DNA of 33,327 nucleotides from Gammaproteobacteria bacterium. GTDB taxonomy: Bacteria > Pseudomonadota > Gammaproteobacteria > Steroidobacterales > Steroidobacteraceae. Under the pieces are notes generated by a model. The model did no database searches and was not told where the DNA came from. It saw only the letters and a program-made list of their open reading frames with translations. This document shows positions 5,361 through 26,406 of this stretch, one piece after another (positions within the stretch are counted from its first letter, which is position 1; the number at the start of each line of letters is the position of its first letter). Location: NCBI GenBank assembly GCA_028870355.1, contig JAGWPU010000157.1:1-33327 (forward strand), written 5' to 3'. The position numbers and the translations under genes were made by a program.

Positions 5361-5452
5361 GACGAACGCTCCCCGCCCGCCCTGCGTGCGGCCGTGCGGA
5401 CGGCCCCGGAAAATTGCTAAGCTCGCAGCCTTTGATTTTCGGGAGCGCAAGC

Positions 5453-6712
5453 TTGGGCGAGCGGGCGGGTCGGCGGCTCGGAATGGCGGCTCTGTGCGTC
5501 GCGGGCCTGGTCGCGTCCGGCGCGGCCCGGGCCGCCCTGCCGTCGTGGATCGGCCGCTGGCTGGATCCCGCGACCGCGCCGTTCATTCCGGTGCCGGAGA
5601 TCGACGTCGATCCGAACAGCGGCACGACCCTCGGCCTGATTCCGACCTGGCTGGTCACCGACGACAAGTCGCAGATCCGCAAGATCATCGCGCCGGACGT
5701 GATCCACAACCCGAATTTCGGCTGGGGTGCGCGCGGCCGGATCTTCGCGTACCCGTCGCAGGACACGCAATGGTCGCTGGTCGCGGGCGCCAAGCAGCGC
5801 GTCGAGAGCGAATTCGACTTCGAGTACGAGGCCGGGCGGCTGCGGGACACGCGCTGGTCGTTCGACGCGAGCGTCGTGTACGACCGCAACGGCACGCCGC
5901 GCTTCTACGGGATCGGCAACCAGTCGCCGGTCATCGACGAGACGAACTACACGGATCAGCAGAAATACGTGCAGACGACCCTCGGCTGGAACGTCACGCA
6001 CGCGTGGCAGATCGGGTGGACCCTGCGTGCGCGCGAAGTCGCGATCCAGCCCGGCTCGCTCGCGAGGATCGCCTCGATCCAGACGCGGTTCGCGGGGCTG
6101 CTCGGCATCGGCGTCAACCACGAAGTGCTGAACCGCGTCGAGATCACCTACGACACGCGCAATGACGCGACGATGCCGACACGCGGCGGAGCCTATGCGA
6201 TCTTCGGCGGCGTCGCATCCCGCGAGGGGATCTTCAATGCGACGCTCTACAGCGTCGCCGGATTCGACGGCCGCCAGTTCTGGCACGTGGGCCGCGAGGC
6301 GACCATCGCGGCGCACGTCGCACTGCGGTACATGCCGGGAACGTCCAACGTGCCCTTCTGGAGCCTCTCGAGCATCGGCGGCGACCGCAGCATCCTCGGC
6401 GAGGCCCAGCCGCTGCGCGGCTTCGGCACGGGCCGGTTCTACGGCCGGAATTCCTTCTCGTCGAGCCTGGAATACCGCCGGCGCGTGCTGTCGCTGAACG
6501 CGATGTCCACCCACATCGACGTCGAGCTCACCCCGTTCATCGACGTGGGCGAGGTGTTCGCCCATTCCCGCGGTTCGCCGGTCGCGCACCTGCACAAGGT
6601 CGGCGGCCTCGGCTTTCGCGGACTGGCACCCCCGTTCGTGGTCGGTTACGTCGACATCGGCTACGGCAGCGAAGGCGCGGCCGTATTCACCGGCATCAAC
6701 TATCCGTTCTAG
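5453..6712 (+). CDS. Omp85-superfamily outer-membrane beta-barrel protein without POTRA domains
   Basis: The 419-residue product starts at TTG (5453) with GGGAG seven bases upstream. A signal peptide follows (MGERAGRRLGMAALCVAGLV..., cleavage likely after ARA near residue 28). The mature protein begins with a short linker and runs straight into a barrel: alternating strands, the segment VEITYDTRNDATMPTRGGAY (a surface-antigen/D15 signature), then IGGDRSILGEAQPLRGFGTGRF, which holds the conserved RGF motif of Omp85 L6-type loops, and SSLEYRRRV. It ends with aromatic-terminated GINYPF, the usual C-terminal insertion signal. No POTRA repeats fit in the roughly 25 residues between signal and barrel, so this is not BamA or TamA. 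Eleven bases downstream begins an MMPL transporter, probably in the same transcript. An ATG at 5483 is a less likely start because it would clip the n-region. Confidence 0.85.
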   Translation: MGERAGRRLGMAALCVAGLVASGAARAALPSWIGRWLDPATAPFIPVPEIDVDPNSGTTLGLIPTWLVTDDKSQIRKIIAPDVIHNPNFGWGARGRIFAYPSQDTQWSLVAGAKQRVESEFDFEYEAGRLRDTRWSFDASVVYDRNGTPRFYGIGNQSPVIDETNYTDQQKYVQTTLGWNVTHAWQIGWTLRAREVAIQPGSLARIASIQTRFAGLLGIGVNHEVLNRVEITYDTRNDATMPTRGGAYAIFGGVASREGIFNATLYSVAGFDGRQFWHVGREATIAAHVALRYMPGTSNVPFWSLSSIGGDRSILGEAQPLRGFGTGRFYGRNSFSSSLEYRRRVLSLNAMSTHIDVELTPFIDVGEVFAHSRGSPVAHLHKVGGLGFRGLAPPFVVGYVDIGYGSEGAAVFTGINYPF

Positions 6713-6723
6713 CCCGCGTCGCG

Positions 6724-8919
6724 ATGACATCCCTGTTCTTCGGCCTCGGTCGATCGGTCGCAAAGCACGCGCGCCTCGTGGTCGCGATCTGGGCGGTCGC
6801 GATCGCGCTCGGCGCATGGGGCGCAGTGGTCTTTGCGCACGTGGCGATCGGCGGCACCGCGAGCCTCGCGGGCAGCGCGTCGAAGCAGGTCGACGATGCG
6901 CTGCAGGCGGATTTCCGCAATCCGTTCCTCGATCCCCTGGTCGTCGCGGTCTCGAGCGCGCACTACCGCATCGATCAGGCGCCGTTCGCGGCGTGGGATC
7001 GGAAGGCCGCGGCCACCCTGCGCGGACTCGCCGACGTCAGCGCCGTCGAATCCTACGCGGAGACGGGCGATCCGTCGCTGAAGTCGCCCGACGGGCACCT
7101 GACGATGCTGCTGGTCGGGCTGAGGGCGCGCGACGAGGGCGGGCAGCATCGCGCCGTCCGGCACGTGCGCGATGCGCTCGCGCCGCTGCGCGCCGAACTG
7201 CACGGCCTCGACGCCTCGTCGCGGGTCGCGGTCACCGGCGGGCCCGCCGTCGACTTCGACATCAACACCAGCAGCGCCGAGGGCGGAGACCATGCGGAGA
7301 AGCGCGCGCTGCCGCTCACGCTGGCGATCCTGCTGGTCGCGTTCGGCACCGTCGTCGCCGCCGTATTGCCGTTCCTGATGGGCCTCGCCTCGACCATGGT
7401 GGCGTTCGGCGCGGCGTTCCTGCTGGCCCGCCTGATGCCGGTGTCGAATCTTCTGGGCAACGTGATCACGATGGTCGGGCTCGCGGTGGGAATCGACTAC
7501 TCGCTGTTGATGGTGAAGGACTTTCGCGAGTCGCTGCGGCGTGCGGACGTCGCCACCGCCGTCGCGGTAACGGTCGGCGAAGCCGGAATGACGATCTGCT
7601 GGTCGGGCTGCACGGTCGCGATCGGCCTGCTGGGCCTGTTGTTCAGCCCGATTCTGGAGACCCGCAGCGTCGGCATCGGCGGCGCGCTCGTGGTGCTGGT
7701 CGCCGTGCTCGCGGCGCTGACCCTGCTGCCGGCCTGCCTCGCCCTGCTCGGCCGGCGCGTCGAGCGGTGGCCGGTCGCTCCAGGGGCGTTCAAGCGCGCG
7801 GACCGTGCGGTGTTCTGGCGGCGTCTGGCGGCCTGGACCGTGCGACGGCCGCTGCGGAGCCTCGGCGGGTCGGGCCTGGTCGTGCTCGCGCTCGCGCTGC
7901 CGGTGCTCGGGGCGCACAGCGGCTTCACGAACGAGCCATGGTTCCTGCCGAAAGGCATGGAGGCGCGCGTCGGCATGGATATGCTCGCCGGCGTTCGCCG
8001 CGACGCCGCCGATCTCGACCTGCGCATCCTCGTGCGTGCGACCGACGACGGGGCGCTGCTCGCGCCGTCTCACATGGCCCCGCTGCGCGCGTACGTGGCC
8101 CGGCTGGCGGCCGATTCGCGCGTCGCGTCGATCGCTTCGCCGCTGAACGCGCCGAATCCGGCGGCGCGCGCGCTGTTCCTGAGCCGCGACGGGCGGGCGG
8201 GACTCATCGAGCTGACGCCCGCGGCGAACCTGAGCGTCGCCGAGGTCCAGAGGCTCGCGCGCGATCTGGGAGGCATCGCTGCGCCGGGCGCGCTGCACGC
8301 GACCGTCGGCGGGACGCCGGTGTATTACGACGAATTCAGCGACTACATGTGGCGCAGCTTTCCGAAGGTGTTCGGCTTCGTGATTGCGGCGACCCTGGTG
8401 CTGCTGTTCGCGGCTTTTCGCTCCTACTTGCTGCCGATCAAGGCGGTCGCCGCGAATCTGCTCGCGATCGGCGCGGGCTACGGCGCCGTGGTCGCGGTGT
8501 TCCAGTTCGGCTGGTTCGGCCGGCTGGTCGGACTCGAGCATCCGTTCGGCGCGATTGCGCTCGAGGTGCCGATGATGATCTTCTGCCTGAGCTTCGGGCT
8601 GTCGATGGACTACGAACTGTTCCTGCTGTTCAGGATACGGCGCGAGTACCTCGTGCACGGCGACAATGCGCGCGCCACGGTCGACGGGCTCGCGTCCGTC
8701 GCGCCGGTGATCACCGGCGCGGGCCTGATCATGGCGGTCGTGTTCGGTGCGTTCGCGGGAGCGGCGCTGCCCGCCCTGAAAATGATCGGTGTCGGTCTGT
8801 GCGTCGCGGTGCTCGTCGACGCGACCCTGATACGCGGCTTCGTCGTGCCCGCGTTCATGAGCATCGCCGGACGTTGGAACTGGTATCCCGGTCCGAGGTC
8901 CCGGGACCGTCTCCAATAA
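6724..8919 (+). CDS. MMPL/RND-superfamily inner-membrane transporter
   Basis: The 731-residue product has the internal duplication of RND permeases: one membrane helix (about 17-40), a periplasmic domain, a helix cluster (about 195-345), a second single helix (about 378-395), a second periplasmic domain, and a final cluster (about 540-720). Both halves carry an Asp-Tyr pair at the expected proton-relay sites, GIDYSLLMV near residue 257 and SMDYELFLLFRIRREY near residue 627, as in MmpL3. MMPL proteins export lipids or other hydrophobic molecules using proton motive force. Direct linkage to an outer-membrane barrel suggests a joint envelope transport role. A methyl-accepting or sterol-sensing domain is absent. 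Substrate is unknown. Confidence 0.9.
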   Translation: MTSLFFGLGRSVAKHARLVVAIWAVAIALGAWGAVVFAHVAIGGTASLAGSASKQVDDALQADFRNPFLDPLVVAVSSAHYRIDQAPFAAWDRKAAATLRGLADVSAVESYAETGDPSLKSPDGHLTMLLVGLRARDEGGQHRAVRHVRDALAPLRAELHGLDASSRVAVTGGPAVDFDINTSSAEGGDHAEKRALPLTLAILLVAFGTVVAAVLPFLMGLASTMVAFGAAFLLARLMPVSNLLGNVITMVGLAVGIDYSLLMVKDFRESLRRADVATAVAVTVGEAGMTICWSGCTVAIGLLGLLFSPILETRSVGIGGALVVLVAVLAALTLLPACLALLGRRVERWPVAPGAFKRADRAVFWRRLAAWTVRRPLRSLGGSGLVVLALALPVLGAHSGFTNEPWFLPKGMEARVGMDMLAGVRRDAADLDLRILVRATDDGALLAPSHMAPLRAYVARLAADSRVASIASPLNAPNPAARALFLSRDGRAGLIELTPAANLSVAEVQRLARDLGGIAAPGALHATVGGTPVYYDEFSDYMWRSFPKVFGFVIAATLVLLFAAFRSYLLPIKAVAANLLAIGAGYGAVVAVFQFGWFGRLVGLEHPFGAIALEVPMMIFCLSFGLSMDYELFLLFRIRREYLVHGDNARATVDGLASVAPVITGAGLIMAVVFGAFAGAALPALKMIGVGLCVAVLVDATLIRGFVVPAFMSIAGRWNWYPGPRSRDRLQ

Positions 8920-9011: not shown

Positions 9012-9512
9012 ATGGCCCTTTGGAAAGAAACGGGGATGCCCGGCGCGAGCGGCAATCCGGTTGCCCCGACCGCGGCGACTCCAGAGCGAACGGTCCCCGA
9101 CATTCCGGCGCCGGCCCAGGCCCGCAAACCCAAGGAACGCGGCGAAGGCGGCGATTCCGTGATTGCCGCCAACCTCACGATCGAAGGCAAGATCGAGGGA
9201 TCCGGGAACGTCCGGATCGCGGGCCGCTTCAAGGGCGACGTGCGGATCGACGGCAATTTCAACATGGAGTCCGGCTCCCACTTGACCGGCCAGGTGCTTG
9301 CGGGGATCGTGGTCGTCGGCGGCGAATTGCAGGGCAACATCGAGTCGGCGAAGCGCGTCGACGTGCTCGAGGGCGGCGTGATCGTCGGCGACGTGAAGGC
9401 CGGCTCGATCACCGTCGCAGCCGGTTCGCGCATGCGTGGCCACGTCGAGTTCGGCTGGGAGGACGAGAAGCCGGCGAAGCTCGACTTCGGCCGAAAGGGT
9501 GACGGCAACTAG
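9012..9512 (+). CDS. bactofilin (polymer-forming cytoskeletal protein)
   Basis: The 166-residue product contains one bactofilin domain at about residues 49-150, seen as regularly spaced short strands with Gly turns (NLTIEGKIEGSGNVRIAGRF, GDVRIDGNFNMESGSHLTG, GGELQGNIESAKRVDVLEGG, VGDVKAGSITVAAGSRMRG). This is the right-handed beta-helix that polymerises without nucleotide. A Pro/Ala/Lys-rich disordered N-terminus precedes it and a short charged tail follows, both usual. Bactofilins scaffold cell-shape, stalk or polar complexes at the inner face of the membrane. GGGGAG lies about nine bases upstream of the ATG. The 92-base gap from the MMPL gene contains only a weak six-pair hairpin (8932-8947), so this may be a separate transcript. 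Confidence 0.93.
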   Translation: MALWKETGMPGASGNPVAPTAATPERTVPDIPAPAQARKPKERGEGGDSVIAANLTIEGKIEGSGNVRIAGRFKGDVRIDGNFNMESGSHLTGQVLAGIVVVGGELQGNIESAKRVDVLEGGVIVGDVKAGSITVAAGSRMRGHVEFGWEDEKPAKLDFGRKGDGN

Positions 9513-23797: not shown

Positions 23798-24703
23798 ATG
23801 CCGCGGTCGTCCTGGATCGAGCGGATCGCCGGCTTCGCCGAGGAGGCCGGGTCGCGCGCCGCGTTCGCGGCGGCGAACCTCCCGGCGGCCCTCGGCGCCT
23901 ACACGCGTCGCCGCGACGTGGCCTACGGCCCCGATCCGCGCCAGCGCGTGGACGTGTACGTGCCGGACGGGATGCCGTTGACGCCGCGCCCCGTGGTCGT
24001 GTTCTGGCACGGGGGCCGTTGGTCGCAGGGGGACAAGCGGGACTATCGTTTCGTCGGCGCCGCGCTCGCCGAGATCGGCTGCGTCGCGGTGCTGGCGAAC
24101 TATCGACTGTACCCGCAGGTCCGCATGGCCGGCTTCATGCAGGACGCGGCCCTCGCGGCGAGTTGGGCGGCTGAGTATGCGCGCGAGTTCCACGACCCGG
24201 GGCGACTCGTGCTGATGGGGCATTCGGCCGGCGCGATGCTCGCGGCGCTGGTCACGCTCGACACCCGGCATTTCGAAGCGGCGGGGCGGGAGGTTCCGCG
24301 GATCGCGGGCGTGATCGGGCTGTCCGGCCCGTACGATTTCCTGCCGCTGGTCGATGCGGACCTGCTCGAGATCTTCGGTCCCGAGGAGGCGCTGCCCGCG
24401 TCGCAGCCGATCCGCTTCGCCCGTCCCGGCGTCCCGCCGATGCTGCTCGTGCACGGTGCCGCCGACGAGACCGTCTGGCCGAAGAACTCGCGCAACCTCG
24501 CCGCCGCGCTCGGCGCGTGCGGCGCCGAGGTGACGTTGCGCCTGCTGCCGGGCCTGCGACACGCCGACACGGTCGCGGCGCTGAGCCTGCCGGCGCGCGG
24601 GCGCGCGCCGGTGCTGCGCGACGTCGATCGGTTCGTCCGCGGTCTCGGGGTGCCGGCCGGATACCGCGGACGCCAACCGGTACGCGCGGCCACCGAGCCT
24701 TGA
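23798..24703 (+). CDS. alpha/beta hydrolase, esterase/lipase type
   Basis: The 301-residue product begins after GAGGAG seven bases upstream of its ATG. It has an HGG oxyanion motif (VVVFWHGGRWSQGDKRD, His71), the nucleophile elbow GHSAG with Ser143, a likely acid Asp223 in VHGAADETVW and a likely catalytic His255 in LLPGLRHADTV. The overall order and GVIGLSGPYDFLPL segment place it with carboxylesterase-like BD-FAE or kynurenine-formamidase-like hydrolases. No signal peptide is seen, so it is probably cytoplasmic. Substrate is unknown; no tryptophan catabolism genes are near. It lies 11 bases downstream of the HExxH gene and is likely co-transcribed with it. The next gene is convergent. Confidence 0.88.
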   Translation: MPRSSWIERIAGFAEEAGSRAAFAAANLPAALGAYTRRRDVAYGPDPRQRVDVYVPDGMPLTPRPVVVFWHGGRWSQGDKRDYRFVGAALAEIGCVAVLANYRLYPQVRMAGFMQDAALAASWAAEYAREFHDPGRLVLMGHSAGAMLAALVTLDTRHFEAAGREVPRIAGVIGLSGPYDFLPLVDADLLEIFGPEEALPASQPIRFARPGVPPMLLVHGAADETVWPKNSRNLAAALGACGAEVTLRLLPGLRHADTVAALSLPARGRAPVLRDVDRFVRGLGVPAGYRGRQPVRAATEP

Positions 24704-24743
24704 GTCGCGCCGACCGTGCGCTGCGGCCCGGCCAGCCTCGCCG

Positions 24744-25850
24744 TCAGGCGCTGCGCGGCGGCTCCGCGGCACCGGCGACCGAATAGACGCGGCCGAACCG
24801 GTTGGCGAGGAACTTCGGCAACGCGATGTCCTCCTGCCGCACGAGTCCCGCCTGCGGCAGCTCGCCGGATGCCAGCAGGTCGAGCACGGTGCAGATGCCC
24901 GACGCGGTCGTCAGCTGGATCGCGCTGCGCACGCGCCCGCCGACCGGCGCTGCATAGATCCGGTTCGCGTAGGTCTCCTGGACCAACTGGCCGCCGCGCA
25001 GGCCGGTCACCGTGACGAACACGATCACGACGTCCTGCAGCGTCACCGGCAGCGCGCTCTCCAGGATCTCCTTCAGCAACTCGCGGCGGTCGCGCAGCCG
25101 CAGGTCGTTCAGCAGGACCTTCATCAGCGCGGCGTGACCGGGATAGCGGATCGTCCGGTAGTTGAGATTGCGCACCTTGCCGGCGAGCGTCTCGCACAGC
25201 GTGCCGAGGCCGCCGGAGGTGTTGAACGCCTCGTAGCGATCGCCGTCGAGCGAGAATTCCTCGAGTTCCTCGAGGGGCTGCGTCTCGCGGAGTTCGCCAT
25301 TCACGATCGCCTCGCACGGCTGGCAGTACTCGTTGATCACGCCGTCCGTGCTCCAGGTGAGGTTGTAGTTCAGCGCGTTCGACGGGAATTTCGGCAGTGC
25401 GCCGACCCGCATCCGCACGTCGTGCAACTCGTCGAACCGGGACGCGAGATCCGAGGCCACGATCGTGATGAACCCCGGCGCGAGGCCGCATTGCGGGATG
25501 AACGCCGTGCGAGCGCCATTCGCGAGCTGCTTGACCGCGCGGGTGCTCGTGACGTCCTCGGTCAGGTCGAGATAGTGCGCGCCGCCCGCCTTCGCGGCTT
25601 CGGCGATCGCCCGGGTCGCATGGAACGGTGCCGCGCTCAGCACCGCGAACTGTCCCGCGGTCGCGCGCCGCAGCCCCGCCGTGTCCTCGATGTCCACCGC
25701 GAGCTTGGTCACGGGCCGCGAGGTCTCGAGCCGCTCGAGCTGCGCGCTCGAGCGATCCACGATCGTGACCGCGTAATCGCCCGATCCGGCGAGGTTCTCG
25801 GCGATCATCGCGCCGATCTTGCCCGCGCCGATCACGACCACGTTCTTCAT
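24744..25850 (-). CDS. saccharopine dehydrogenase-like NAD(P)-dependent oxidoreductase
   Basis: The 368-residue product begins with a Rossmann motif, VVVIGAGKIGAMIAENLA, followed by VTIVDRSSAQLERLE, and contains the family segment SAAPFHATRAIAEAAKAGGA followed by HYLDLTEDV and CGLAPGF. The C-terminal half matches saccharopine dehydrogenase catalytic-domain relatives such as lysine 6-dehydrogenase (YNLTWSTDGVINEY, CQPCEAIVNGEL, DGDRYEAFNTSGGLGTLCET). It probably acts on a lysine-related or other amino acid, but lysine synthesis by the saccharopine route is not typical for proteobacteria. GGAGG stands four bases before the ATG. The divergent Lrp-type regulator suggests control by an amino acid. 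The frame upstream is open to 26075 but overlaps the regulator and is not used. Confidence 0.85.
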   Translation of the reverse strand: MKNVVVIGAGKIGAMIAENLAGSGDYAVTIVDRSSAQLERLETSRPVTKLAVDIEDTAGLRRATAGQFAVLSAAPFHATRAIAEAAKAGGAHYLDLTEDVTSTRAVKQLANGARTAFIPQCGLAPGFITIVASDLASRFDELHDVRMRVGALPKFPSNALNYNLTWSTDGVINEYCQPCEAIVNGELRETQPLEELEEFSLDGDRYEAFNTSGGLGTLCETLAGKVRNLNYRTIRYPGHAALMKVLLNDLRLRDRRELLKEILESALPVTLQDVVIVFVTVTGLRGGQLVQETYANRIYAAPVGGRVRSAIQLTTASGICTVLDLLASGELPQAGLVRQEDIALPKFLANRFGRVYSVAGAAEPPRSA

Positions 25851-25930
25851 AGTGCCTCCGGATTCGAATTCGCTGCTGGGAATGCGGTATTTTTCGCCAG
25901 CGCGCGGCCGATGGGTACCGTCGAATGCGC

Positions 25931-25959
25931 CAAAATGACGTACGATATTGGTCGTTTTG
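25931..25959. promoter_or_regulatory. operator-like inverted repeat between the dehydrogenase and Lrp genes
   Basis: CAAAATGAC at 25931-25939 and GTCGTTTTG at 25951-25959 are inverted copies matching at eight of nine positions, separated by 11 bases. The element is AT-richer than its surroundings, ends 18 bases before the regulator ATG and lies 80 bases upstream of the dehydrogenase ATG. Lrp/AsnC proteins bind such imperfect palindromes, so autoregulation and control of the divergent gene are likely but inferred. Confidence 0.5.
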
Positions 25960-25977
25960 ACTACCTGGTTCGTCGAA

Positions 25978-26406
25978 ATGTCGGATCCGATCGACGAGAA
26001 GCTGCTTGCCGCGCTGCGCGAGGACGGTCGCGCGTCGGTCGCCGCGCTCGCGCGCGCGGTCGGACGCTCGCGCACCAGCGTGCAGAGCCGCCTGCGCCGG
26101 CTGGAGCGGCAGGGGGTGATCCTCGGCTACGCGGTGCGCATCGCACCCGAGCATGCCGAGGGCGCGGTGCGCGCGCACGTCTCGATCAAGGTCGGCCCCA
26201 AGGAGGCGCGCGGCGTGATCGGCGAGCTGCGCCGGATCAAGGCGGTCCGGGTGCTGCATTCGGTCAGCGGGGAACTCGATCTGATCGCGGTCGCCGCGAC
26301 CGCGAGCGTCGCGGAAATGGACGAAGTGATCGATCGAATCGGGGCGATCGCCGGCGTCGAGCGCACGATCTCCTCGATCATCCTGTCGACGAAGTTCGAC
26401 CGCTGA
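25978..26406 (+). CDS. Lrp/AsnC-family transcriptional regulator
   Basis: The 142-residue product has the family layout: an N-terminal winged helix-turn-helix (DPIDEKLLAALREDGRASVA then ALARAVGRSRTSVQSRLRRL, about residues 4-45), the linker strand GVILGYAVRIAP, and a C-terminal RAM ligand-binding domain (RAHVSIKVGPKE, VLHSVSGELDLIAVAA, DEVIDRIGAIAGVERT and a last strand SIILSTKFD). Ligands of this fold are usually amino acids. The ATG at 25978 starts MSDPIDEKL, the usual beginning; a TTG at 25948 would place start codons inside the inverted repeat and is rejected. It is transcribed away from a saccharopine-dehydrogenase-like gene, its likely target. Confidence 0.93.
   Translation: MSDPIDEKLLAALREDGRASVAALARAVGRSRTSVQSRLRRLERQGVILGYAVRIAPEHAEGAVRAHVSIKVGPKEARGVIGELRRIKAVRVLHSVSGELDLIAVAATASVAEMDEVIDRIGAIAGVERTISSIILSTKFDR

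Follow-up and report, generated by a model that had tools for sequence, protein, structure and literature searches.

Contig JAGWPU010000157.1 of assembly GCA_028870355.1, from a Gammaproteobacteria bacterium placed in the Steroidobacteraceae, was analyzed over its whole length of 33,327 nucleotides, which is referred to here as the window. It carries a gene for an outer-membrane barrel of the Omp85 superfamily and, on the same strand, a gene for an MMPL transporter whose ATG follows the barrel stop codon by 11 bases (Table 1). A first-pass annotation of this DNA had described the barrel as having an RGF motif and a terminal phenylalanine and no POTRA domains, had noted both Asp-Tyr pairs in the transporter 11 bases downstream, and had proposed a two-component lipid path through the envelope. 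The description of the two genes was borne out on each count by the family matches, the predicted structure of the barrel and the coordinates.

Table 1. Coordinates of the barrel and transporter genes in the window, their motifs, and periplasmic binding protein genes at related loci (genome labels G, locus labels L).
Feature	Position	Strand	Details
POTRA-less Omp85 (noNterm-like) outer-membrane barrel	5453..6712	+	419 aa; TTG start at 5453; stop ending at 6712
GGGAG, possible ribosome-binding site	5441..5445	+	7 bases between GGGAG and the TTG at 5453
RGF motif, barrel residues 322-324	6416..6424	+	In the long segment joining strands 283-293 and 333-350
MMPL/RND transporter, MmpL3 fold	6724..8919	+	731 aa; ATG at 6724; stop ending at 8919; PF03176, 275.6 bits
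Asp258-Tyr259, first Asp-Tyr pair	7495..7500	+	Invariant in 10 aligned MMPL sequences
Asp629-Tyr630, second Asp-Tyr pair	8608..8613	+	Invariant in 10 aligned MMPL sequences
Periplasmic binding protein gene, G004	L063:5478-6362		PF01497, 91 bits
Periplasmic binding protein gene, G003	L049:6809-7672		Assigned by clustering
Periplasmic binding protein gene, G012	L065:3841-4389		Assigned by clustering

The barrel protein, for which an alternative start at the ATG at 5483 is possible, has a signal-like N-terminus that aligns with those of congeners, and its chain ends in phenylalanine. The Pfam Omp85 family (PF01103) matched it with 55.9 bits against a cut-off of 24, and the RGF motif lies at a position that we take to correspond to loop L6 of Omp85 proteins; its arginine, R322, is invariant across the 61 rows of an alignment of barrel homologues. 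An AlphaFold model built from this alignment (pLDDT 84.4, pTM 0.80) retrieved the folds of TamA, BamA and Sam50 in a Foldseek search, with an E value of 4.6e-12 for TamA, and compared by VIA with a BamA it gave a Z score of 27.2 and a root mean square deviation (rmsd) of 3.2 over 304 residues. The Pfam match, the RGF motif, the terminal phenylalanine and the BamA/TamA folds together place the protein in the Omp85 superfamily. In the model, the first strand begins at residue 45 and is preceded only by the signal-like segment and one short helix, so that the barrel has no POTRA domain, and no POTRA-sized N-terminus was found among the aligned homologues. Membership of BamA or TamA was therefore rejected, as both carry N-terminal POTRA domain(s) that are absent here. 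In being a barrel without N-terminal extension, the protein resembles the noNterm subfamily of Omp85 proteins, which is defined by the lack of an N-terminal domain (Heinz and Lithgow 2014, PMC4104836); the portion of that article available to us draws no link to hopanoids or MMPL proteins. The NCBIfam model Omp85_fam (NF047779) also matches the window barrel, yet with 112.9 bits it stays under the curated cut-off of 200, as does the homologue at locus L115 (108.9 bits). A search of solved structures using the barrel profile gave zero sequence matches at E 0.01, and an Rfam scan of the window returned nothing above gathering score.

The downstream gene encodes a member of the MMPL family, as indicated by a PF03176 match above gathering score and by both Asp-Tyr pairs, which we take to be proton-relay pairs with the role of those present in MmpL3, the mycobacterial lipid exporter. 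Its AlphaFold model (pLDDT 80.7; the underlying alignment was shallow, with 10 sequences) matched MmpL3 by VIA with a Z score of 48.9 and an rmsd of 3.2 over 694 residues at 24% identity; phmmer gave E 5.7e-48 against MmpL3, and Foldseek gave 1.3e-35 for MmpL3 versus 2.8e-16 for the HpnN structure 5khs. Although the fold and the Asp-Tyr pairs are shared with MmpL3, the score against the MmpL3 equivalog (NF052608) was 186.4 bits for a cut-off of 1400 and that assignment was rejected; the window MMPL is moreover proteobacterial and paired with a barrel, and proteobacteria are not known to make mycolic acids. HpnN is an RND transporter of hopanoids (Doughty 2011 and Kumar 2017, as cited in the accessible text of PMC12583986 and PMC10942540). 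The window MMPL resembles it in belonging to the MMPL/RND transporters and in occurring in a genome that also has hopanoid genes, but the HpnN model (TIGR03480) spans 862 positions against 731 residues here, the score of 51.4 bits lies far under the cut-off of 751.85, and the fold is nearer that of MmpL3; orthology with HpnN was accordingly rejected. The only HpnN-like matches in the window genome at E 1e-10 were this MMPL and its copy on a second contig of the assembly, C147. To our knowledge, HpnN has no outer-membrane barrel partner.

Genome contigs were scanned with the barrel alignment, which yielded 111 relatives; the best 80 loci were retained and underlie all counts out of 80. These loci belong to metagenome-assembled genomes (MAGs) titled Steroidobacteraceae, Gammaproteobacteria, Proteobacteria, Betaproteobacteria, Burkholderiales, Rhodospirillales and similar, some of them, judging by their names, from bog, palsa or peat. 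Genes were called in flanks of up to 8 kb, often shorter, by a simple codon-score script with approximate starts (the call of the barrel itself failed in 2 of the 80 loci); neighbor families were clustered by blastp and recurrent clusters identified with Pfam and NCBIfam, a procedure that can miss partial genes at contig ends. Hopanoids are cholesterol-like lipids of bacteria, and at least one core gene for their synthesis (squalene-hopene cyclase [SHC], squalene synthase [SQS], or HpnA, B, G, H, I, J or K) was found within about 8 kb of the barrel in 33 of 80 loci, or 48 when HpnL is included. By location, the barrel is thus a component of hopanoid clusters at these homologous loci, while the window itself holds no hpn genes; the link is invisible within it and was missed by the first-pass annotation. 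HpnB is the called gene immediately before the barrel in 20 loci, and HpnA is the one immediately after in 21, both running on the strand opposite the barrel. Recurring gene orders include HpnB-barrel-HpnA-HpnG-SHC, SHC-HpnG-HpnA-HpnL-barrel (L092) and HpnA-HpnG-SHC-SQS-barrel, and at L142 and L145 the barrel is divergent from a cluster led by squalene synthase. Cluster representatives scored above cut-off for HpnA (511 bits), SHC (800), HpnB (493), HpnH (539), HpnL (310) and HpnI (384 at L097, and 412), and so did HpnJ (815) and HpnK (389), which were scored on the congener locus L168 and linked to the clusters by BLAST. An HpnG-like phosphorylase remained below its cut-off of 187 (135 and 185 bits), and a squalene/phytoene synthase family member was also among the recurrent neighbors. 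A barrel tree was built by a quick method from 61 rows, the window plus 60 of the 80 loci, and has some long branches; on it, the core hopanoid label switches a minimum of 6 times, and the HpnL label 8. The frame-broken barrel of G027 (L059/L132) was excluded from both alignments. In the window genome, contig C52 carries SQS-SHC-HpnG-HpnA and HpnL-HpnK-HpnJ.

Other surroundings were also met. The barrel lies directly downstream of a TonB-dependent receptor gene at L140, L143, L147, L150, L151 and L152, the last being the only such locus whose genome stood outside the SHC search; barrels in this setting perhaps have an older or different role. LeuS (cluster c37) recurs near the barrel in five loci and was taken as housekeeping context. 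An Mla/MCE operon, guessed from gene sizes for a conserved five-gene cluster beside the barrel, was rejected when Pfam and NCBIfam identified these genes as a Rieske oxygenase, a CDP-alcohol transferase, a HalD-like oxygenase, HpnL and a nucleotidyltransferase, and a lipid theme was absent among 10 annotated neighbors from loci without hopanoid genes.

We then compared the occurrence of the barrel with those of SHC (PF13243) and HpnN across genomes. In a set made up of the window genome and 59 relatives, the barrel was present in 24 of 60 genomes; SHC was found in 21 of these 24 versus 5 of the 36 barrel-less ones, and the two genomes of the window's genus without a barrel, G007 and G017, also lacked SHC. 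A wider set drew on 41 of the 80 loci (40 genomes); 21 of the other 39 lie in genomes of the relatives set and 18 were left out, some of these from MAGs covered through another locus. One genome is common to both sets (G346 = G023). In this wider set, SHC was found in 35 of 40 barrel genomes, and in 40 of the 273 genomes of the class that have no barrel. HpnN was counted when above its curated cut-off, after searches at E 1e-40 for the wider set and the control and at E 1e-10 for the relatives, and the HpnN split over contigs in G044 falls below that cut-off. Among the relatives, HpnN was detected in 3 of 60 genomes, none with a barrel (0 of 24); in the wider set it was detected in 2 of 40 barrel genomes, both SHC-positive and hence 2 of 35, versus 32 of 40 SHC-positive barrel-less genomes. 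Strong SHC matches (420 to 445 bits) with neither HpnN nor barrel were observed in G179, G187, G206, G209, G293 and G317. What a phylum-wide draw of 398 genomes added was confined to three genomes, where the matches were weak (E 1e-8 to 1e-10). Most of the barrel genomes searched have SHC and no HpnN; most simply read, this means that the barrel is part of a route that replaces HpnN.

The association with the MMPL gene is narrower. A matching MMPL (E 1e-20) was found in 14 of the 60 genomes of the relatives set, all with a barrel and all in the window's genus, where the barrel is present in 21 of 23 genomes. In 10 of the 14 (G000, G002, G004, G005, G006, G009, G012, G013, G016 and G022) the two genes are adjacent and co-directional, the MMPL being cut by the contig end in G002 and G022. 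They are divergent neighbors in G019 (L055/L127), lie 3.5 kb apart with four genes in between in G010, and are on separate contigs in G015 and G020, the MMPL of G020 being merely 35% identical. At L115 as well as in G010 (L051), the MMPL is divergent from an operon of CDP-alcohol transferase, HpnL and barrel. A 74-residue CDP-alcohol transferase-like fragment lies between the barrel and the divergent MMPL of G019 (L055:7441-7662; L127:7453-7674) and is possibly a remnant of the arrangement at G010 and L115. We counted the 10 adjacent pairs as one clade because their flanking genes, an aminotransferase and a bactofilin gene, are common to them wherever the contigs reach far enough. In G003, the interval between these flanks holds the barrel with a Rieske oxygenase and no MMPL, and in G015 it holds the MMPL without the barrel; the partners are therefore exchangeable. 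The bactofilin gene (PF04519, 67.7 bits) lies at 9012-9512 of the window, after the MMPL, and is kept at the locus in G003 and G015. The first-pass proposal of a two-component path held only in part. Within a genus resembling Steroidobacteraceae, the tight pair is a fixed trait of a single clade, and the MMPL is near the barrel in only 11 of the 80 homologous loci, 9 of which are one clade; elsewhere the barrel is accompanied by hopanoid genes, by a head-group lipid cluster or by none of these. What stands of the two-component path is that an exporter of lipid type adjoins the barrel in the window genome and nine congeners and that the genomic evidence points to lipid traffic, but that the two genes are the unit was not supported. 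Given the other arrangements (G010, L115 and G019), the link exceeds one inherited adjacency, yet it is optional, and the MMPL label changes at least 3 times on the barrel tree.

A second copy of the pair is present in the window assembly, on contig C147 (L009, G000:C147:1-9613), with 78% DNA identity over the pair. Duplication within one genome was rejected, as C147 repeats the gene order of the window around the pair, and C147 most likely comes from a congener that contaminates the assembly. No conserved adaptor gene was found beside the pair among the annotated loci, nor any adaptor or TolC-type factor of a tripartite RND pump among those of the neighbors that were annotated. A periplasmic binding protein gene adjoins the barrel in G003, G004 and G012 only, and not in the window; its product is a possible soluble carrier, though an unconserved one. 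On the minus strand of the window, an open frame of 719 residues (24103-26259) has no Pfam match at E 1e-5 and may not be a gene, because long overlapping frames are common in this GC-rich DNA.

A further group of neighbors concerns lipid head groups. In 15 of 80 loci the barrel has a CDP-alcohol phosphatidyltransferase gene nearby (at L127 only the 74-residue fragment), accompanied in 13 by a HalD-like oxygenase and HpnL. With a Rieske oxygenase and a nucleotidyltransferase, these make up a conserved five-gene cluster, and a further order reads HpnA-(MMPL)-CDP-alcohol transferase-HalD-HpnL-nucleotidyltransferase-barrel, with the MMPL present in L115. A phosphoenolpyruvate (PEP) mutase gene is near the barrel in 8 of 80 loci; at L058 and L138 it is fused to a nucleotidyltransferase and followed by genes for a thiamine pyrophosphate (TPP) enzyme and a class V aminotransferase. 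The barrel operons of these two loci (L058:413-9097 and L138:547-9257) and those at L086, L088, L091, L094, L098, L104 and L110 hold varying selections of genes for CDP-alcohol transferase, HalD-like iron/2-oxoglutarate oxygenase, HpnL, nucleotidyltransferase and the PEP mutase set, L058 and L110 being in one genome. The PEP mutase-nucleotidyltransferase, TPP enzyme and aminotransferase follow the logic of 2-aminoethylphosphonate activation (described in the available text of PMC6697681). From their gene content, these operons likely encode a pathway for lipids with a phosphonate head group that is tied to HpnL. Such a lipid is possibly a head-grouped hopanoid, given HpnL and sometimes HpnA in the same cluster, although a phosphonolipid is the plainer reading. 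The HpnL of the head-group cluster has no close match in the window genome, its sole match there (35%) being the copy next to SHC.

Taken together, we suggest, with about even confidence, that the barrel is the outer-membrane component of a delivery route for hopanoids, or for hopanoid-linked lipids, where HpnN is absent, and that the MMPL is its inner-membrane pump in the window genome. This suggestion draws on the predicted folds, the absence of POTRA domains, the adjacency within one clade, the clustering with hopanoid genes in other lineages, the co-occurrence with SHC and the near-exclusion with HpnN. The hosts would be proteobacteria that make hopanoids but lack HpnN, and the cargo would be hopanoids or lipids made with enzymes of the hopanoid clusters. 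The MmpL3-like MMPL would lift lipid from the inner membrane, driven by proton flow through the Asp-Tyr pairs; the lipid would then cross the periplasm outward, perhaps through physical contact of the two proteins, and be accepted by the Omp85 barrel, which could release it laterally into the outer membrane via a gate like that of TamA or BamA. A replacement route of this kind would be analogous to phospholipid traffic through TamA-TamB, in which an Omp85 barrel acts with a protein anchored in the inner membrane (implicated in this traffic in the accessible text of PMC12800296). Both systems would thus pair an Omp85 barrel with an inner-membrane protein, but TamA has POTRA domains and TamB is long and periplasm-spanning, whereas the window barrel has no POTRAs and no TamB-like gene was seen beside the pair. 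In Methylococcus, the MMPL-family pump of BstA/BstB/BstC is co-located with sterol genes and outer-membrane lipid delivery has been proposed for the system; it differs in its soluble, sterol-binding BstB and BstC, and no Omp85 barrel is named in the part of that paper available to us (PMC10942540).

The foremost competing explanation, which we consider unlikely, is that the barrel is a POTRA-less Omp85 insertase that assembles outer-membrane proteins where membranes are rich in hopanoids, or a single client protein of hopanoid cells, with hopanoid genes nearby because the membrane, rather than the lipid cargo, is a common need. Its fold is indeed that of BamA, TamA and Sam50, membrane-protein biogenesis was suggested for the noNterm class by Heinz and Lithgow (PMC4104836, in the text available), and a TonB receptor gene lies just upstream in 6 of 80 loci; an assembly factor would not, however, by itself predict near-exclusion with HpnN or operons with CDP-alcohol transferase, HpnL and PEP mutase. 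Those same operons lend themselves to another explanation, rated still lower, in which the cargo is the phosphono- or phospholipid of the CDP-alcohol transferase cluster and the hopanoid genes are mere neighbors in one lipid island. The frequencies of CDP-alcohol transferase (15/80) and PEP mutase (8/80) near the barrel are in its favor, as is the fit of the L058/L138 gene set with 2-aminoethylphosphonate activation (PMC6697681, accessible part), but loci with HpnB-barrel-HpnA have no CDP-alcohol transferase nearby, and the HpnL of the cluster lacks a close match in the window genome, where the search did not extend to the CDP-alcohol transferase itself. Least probable in our estimate is that barrel and MMPL are unrelated genes whose proximity in one clade reflects chance and common ancestry. 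That 9 of the 11 MMPL loci form one clade, in which the flanks (aminotransferase, bactofilin) are conserved wherever they can be seen, and that the two genes are on separate contigs in G015 and G020, would agree with this; they are nevertheless close in other orders in G010, G019/L127 and L115, and 14 of 14 MMPL genomes also carry the barrel, though all belong to one genus in which 21 of 23 have it.

Several observations weigh against the proposed hopanoid route. The MMPL is nearer MmpL3 than HpnN, Omp85 proteins generally serve to assemble or translocate proteins (PMC4104836, available text), and the hopanoid genes of the window genome are on a different contig, C52, from the pair. SHC matches are absent in G005 (91% complete), G009 (81%) and G028 (74%), the first two being among the ten pair genomes, and in 5 of the 40 barrel genomes of the wider set. 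G344 and G368 carry both HpnN and barrel. In the opposite direction, HpnN and the barrel are both missing from 8 of the 40 SHC-positive controls (in two of these the SHC match is itself weak), so that lacking HpnN is not in itself enough to require the barrel. At 22 of 80 loci, the flanks are without hopanoid, HpnL, CDP-alcohol transferase, PEP mutase or MMPL genes, and a deep barrel clade comprises five rows beside TonB receptors, with no SHC match in 4 of the 5 genomes (L140, L143, L150 and L151). Finally, the Fisher tests (3e-20 for SHC and 3e-11 for HpnN) overstate independence because the genomes are related: the barrel carriers probably represent a small number of families, and the 40 controls a large number.

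The noNterm class of Omp85 barrels and the MMPL family are already known. In a literature search over titles and abstract openings, which covers few subscription papers, no link between an Omp85 barrel and hopanoids was found. On a broader view, which we put forward tentatively and would sooner doubt than accept, proteobacteria may have a second, HpnN-independent system for hopanoid export, in which the POTRA-less Omp85 barrel would be the long-missing outer-membrane acceptor and the inner-membrane half would be interchangeable, an MmpL3-like pump here and an HpnL-linked or other component elsewhere; in some lineages its cargo might be hopanoids with a head group, possibly a phosphono- one, produced through the neighboring CDP-alcohol transferase and PEP mutase genes. 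A barrel that tracks SHC and nearly excludes HpnN is a concrete, testable candidate for a missing part of hopanoid delivery to the outer membrane. If the proposed delivery route is true, it would give an orphan class of Omp85 proteins its cargo and provide a second lipid-handling Omp85 protein beside TamA.

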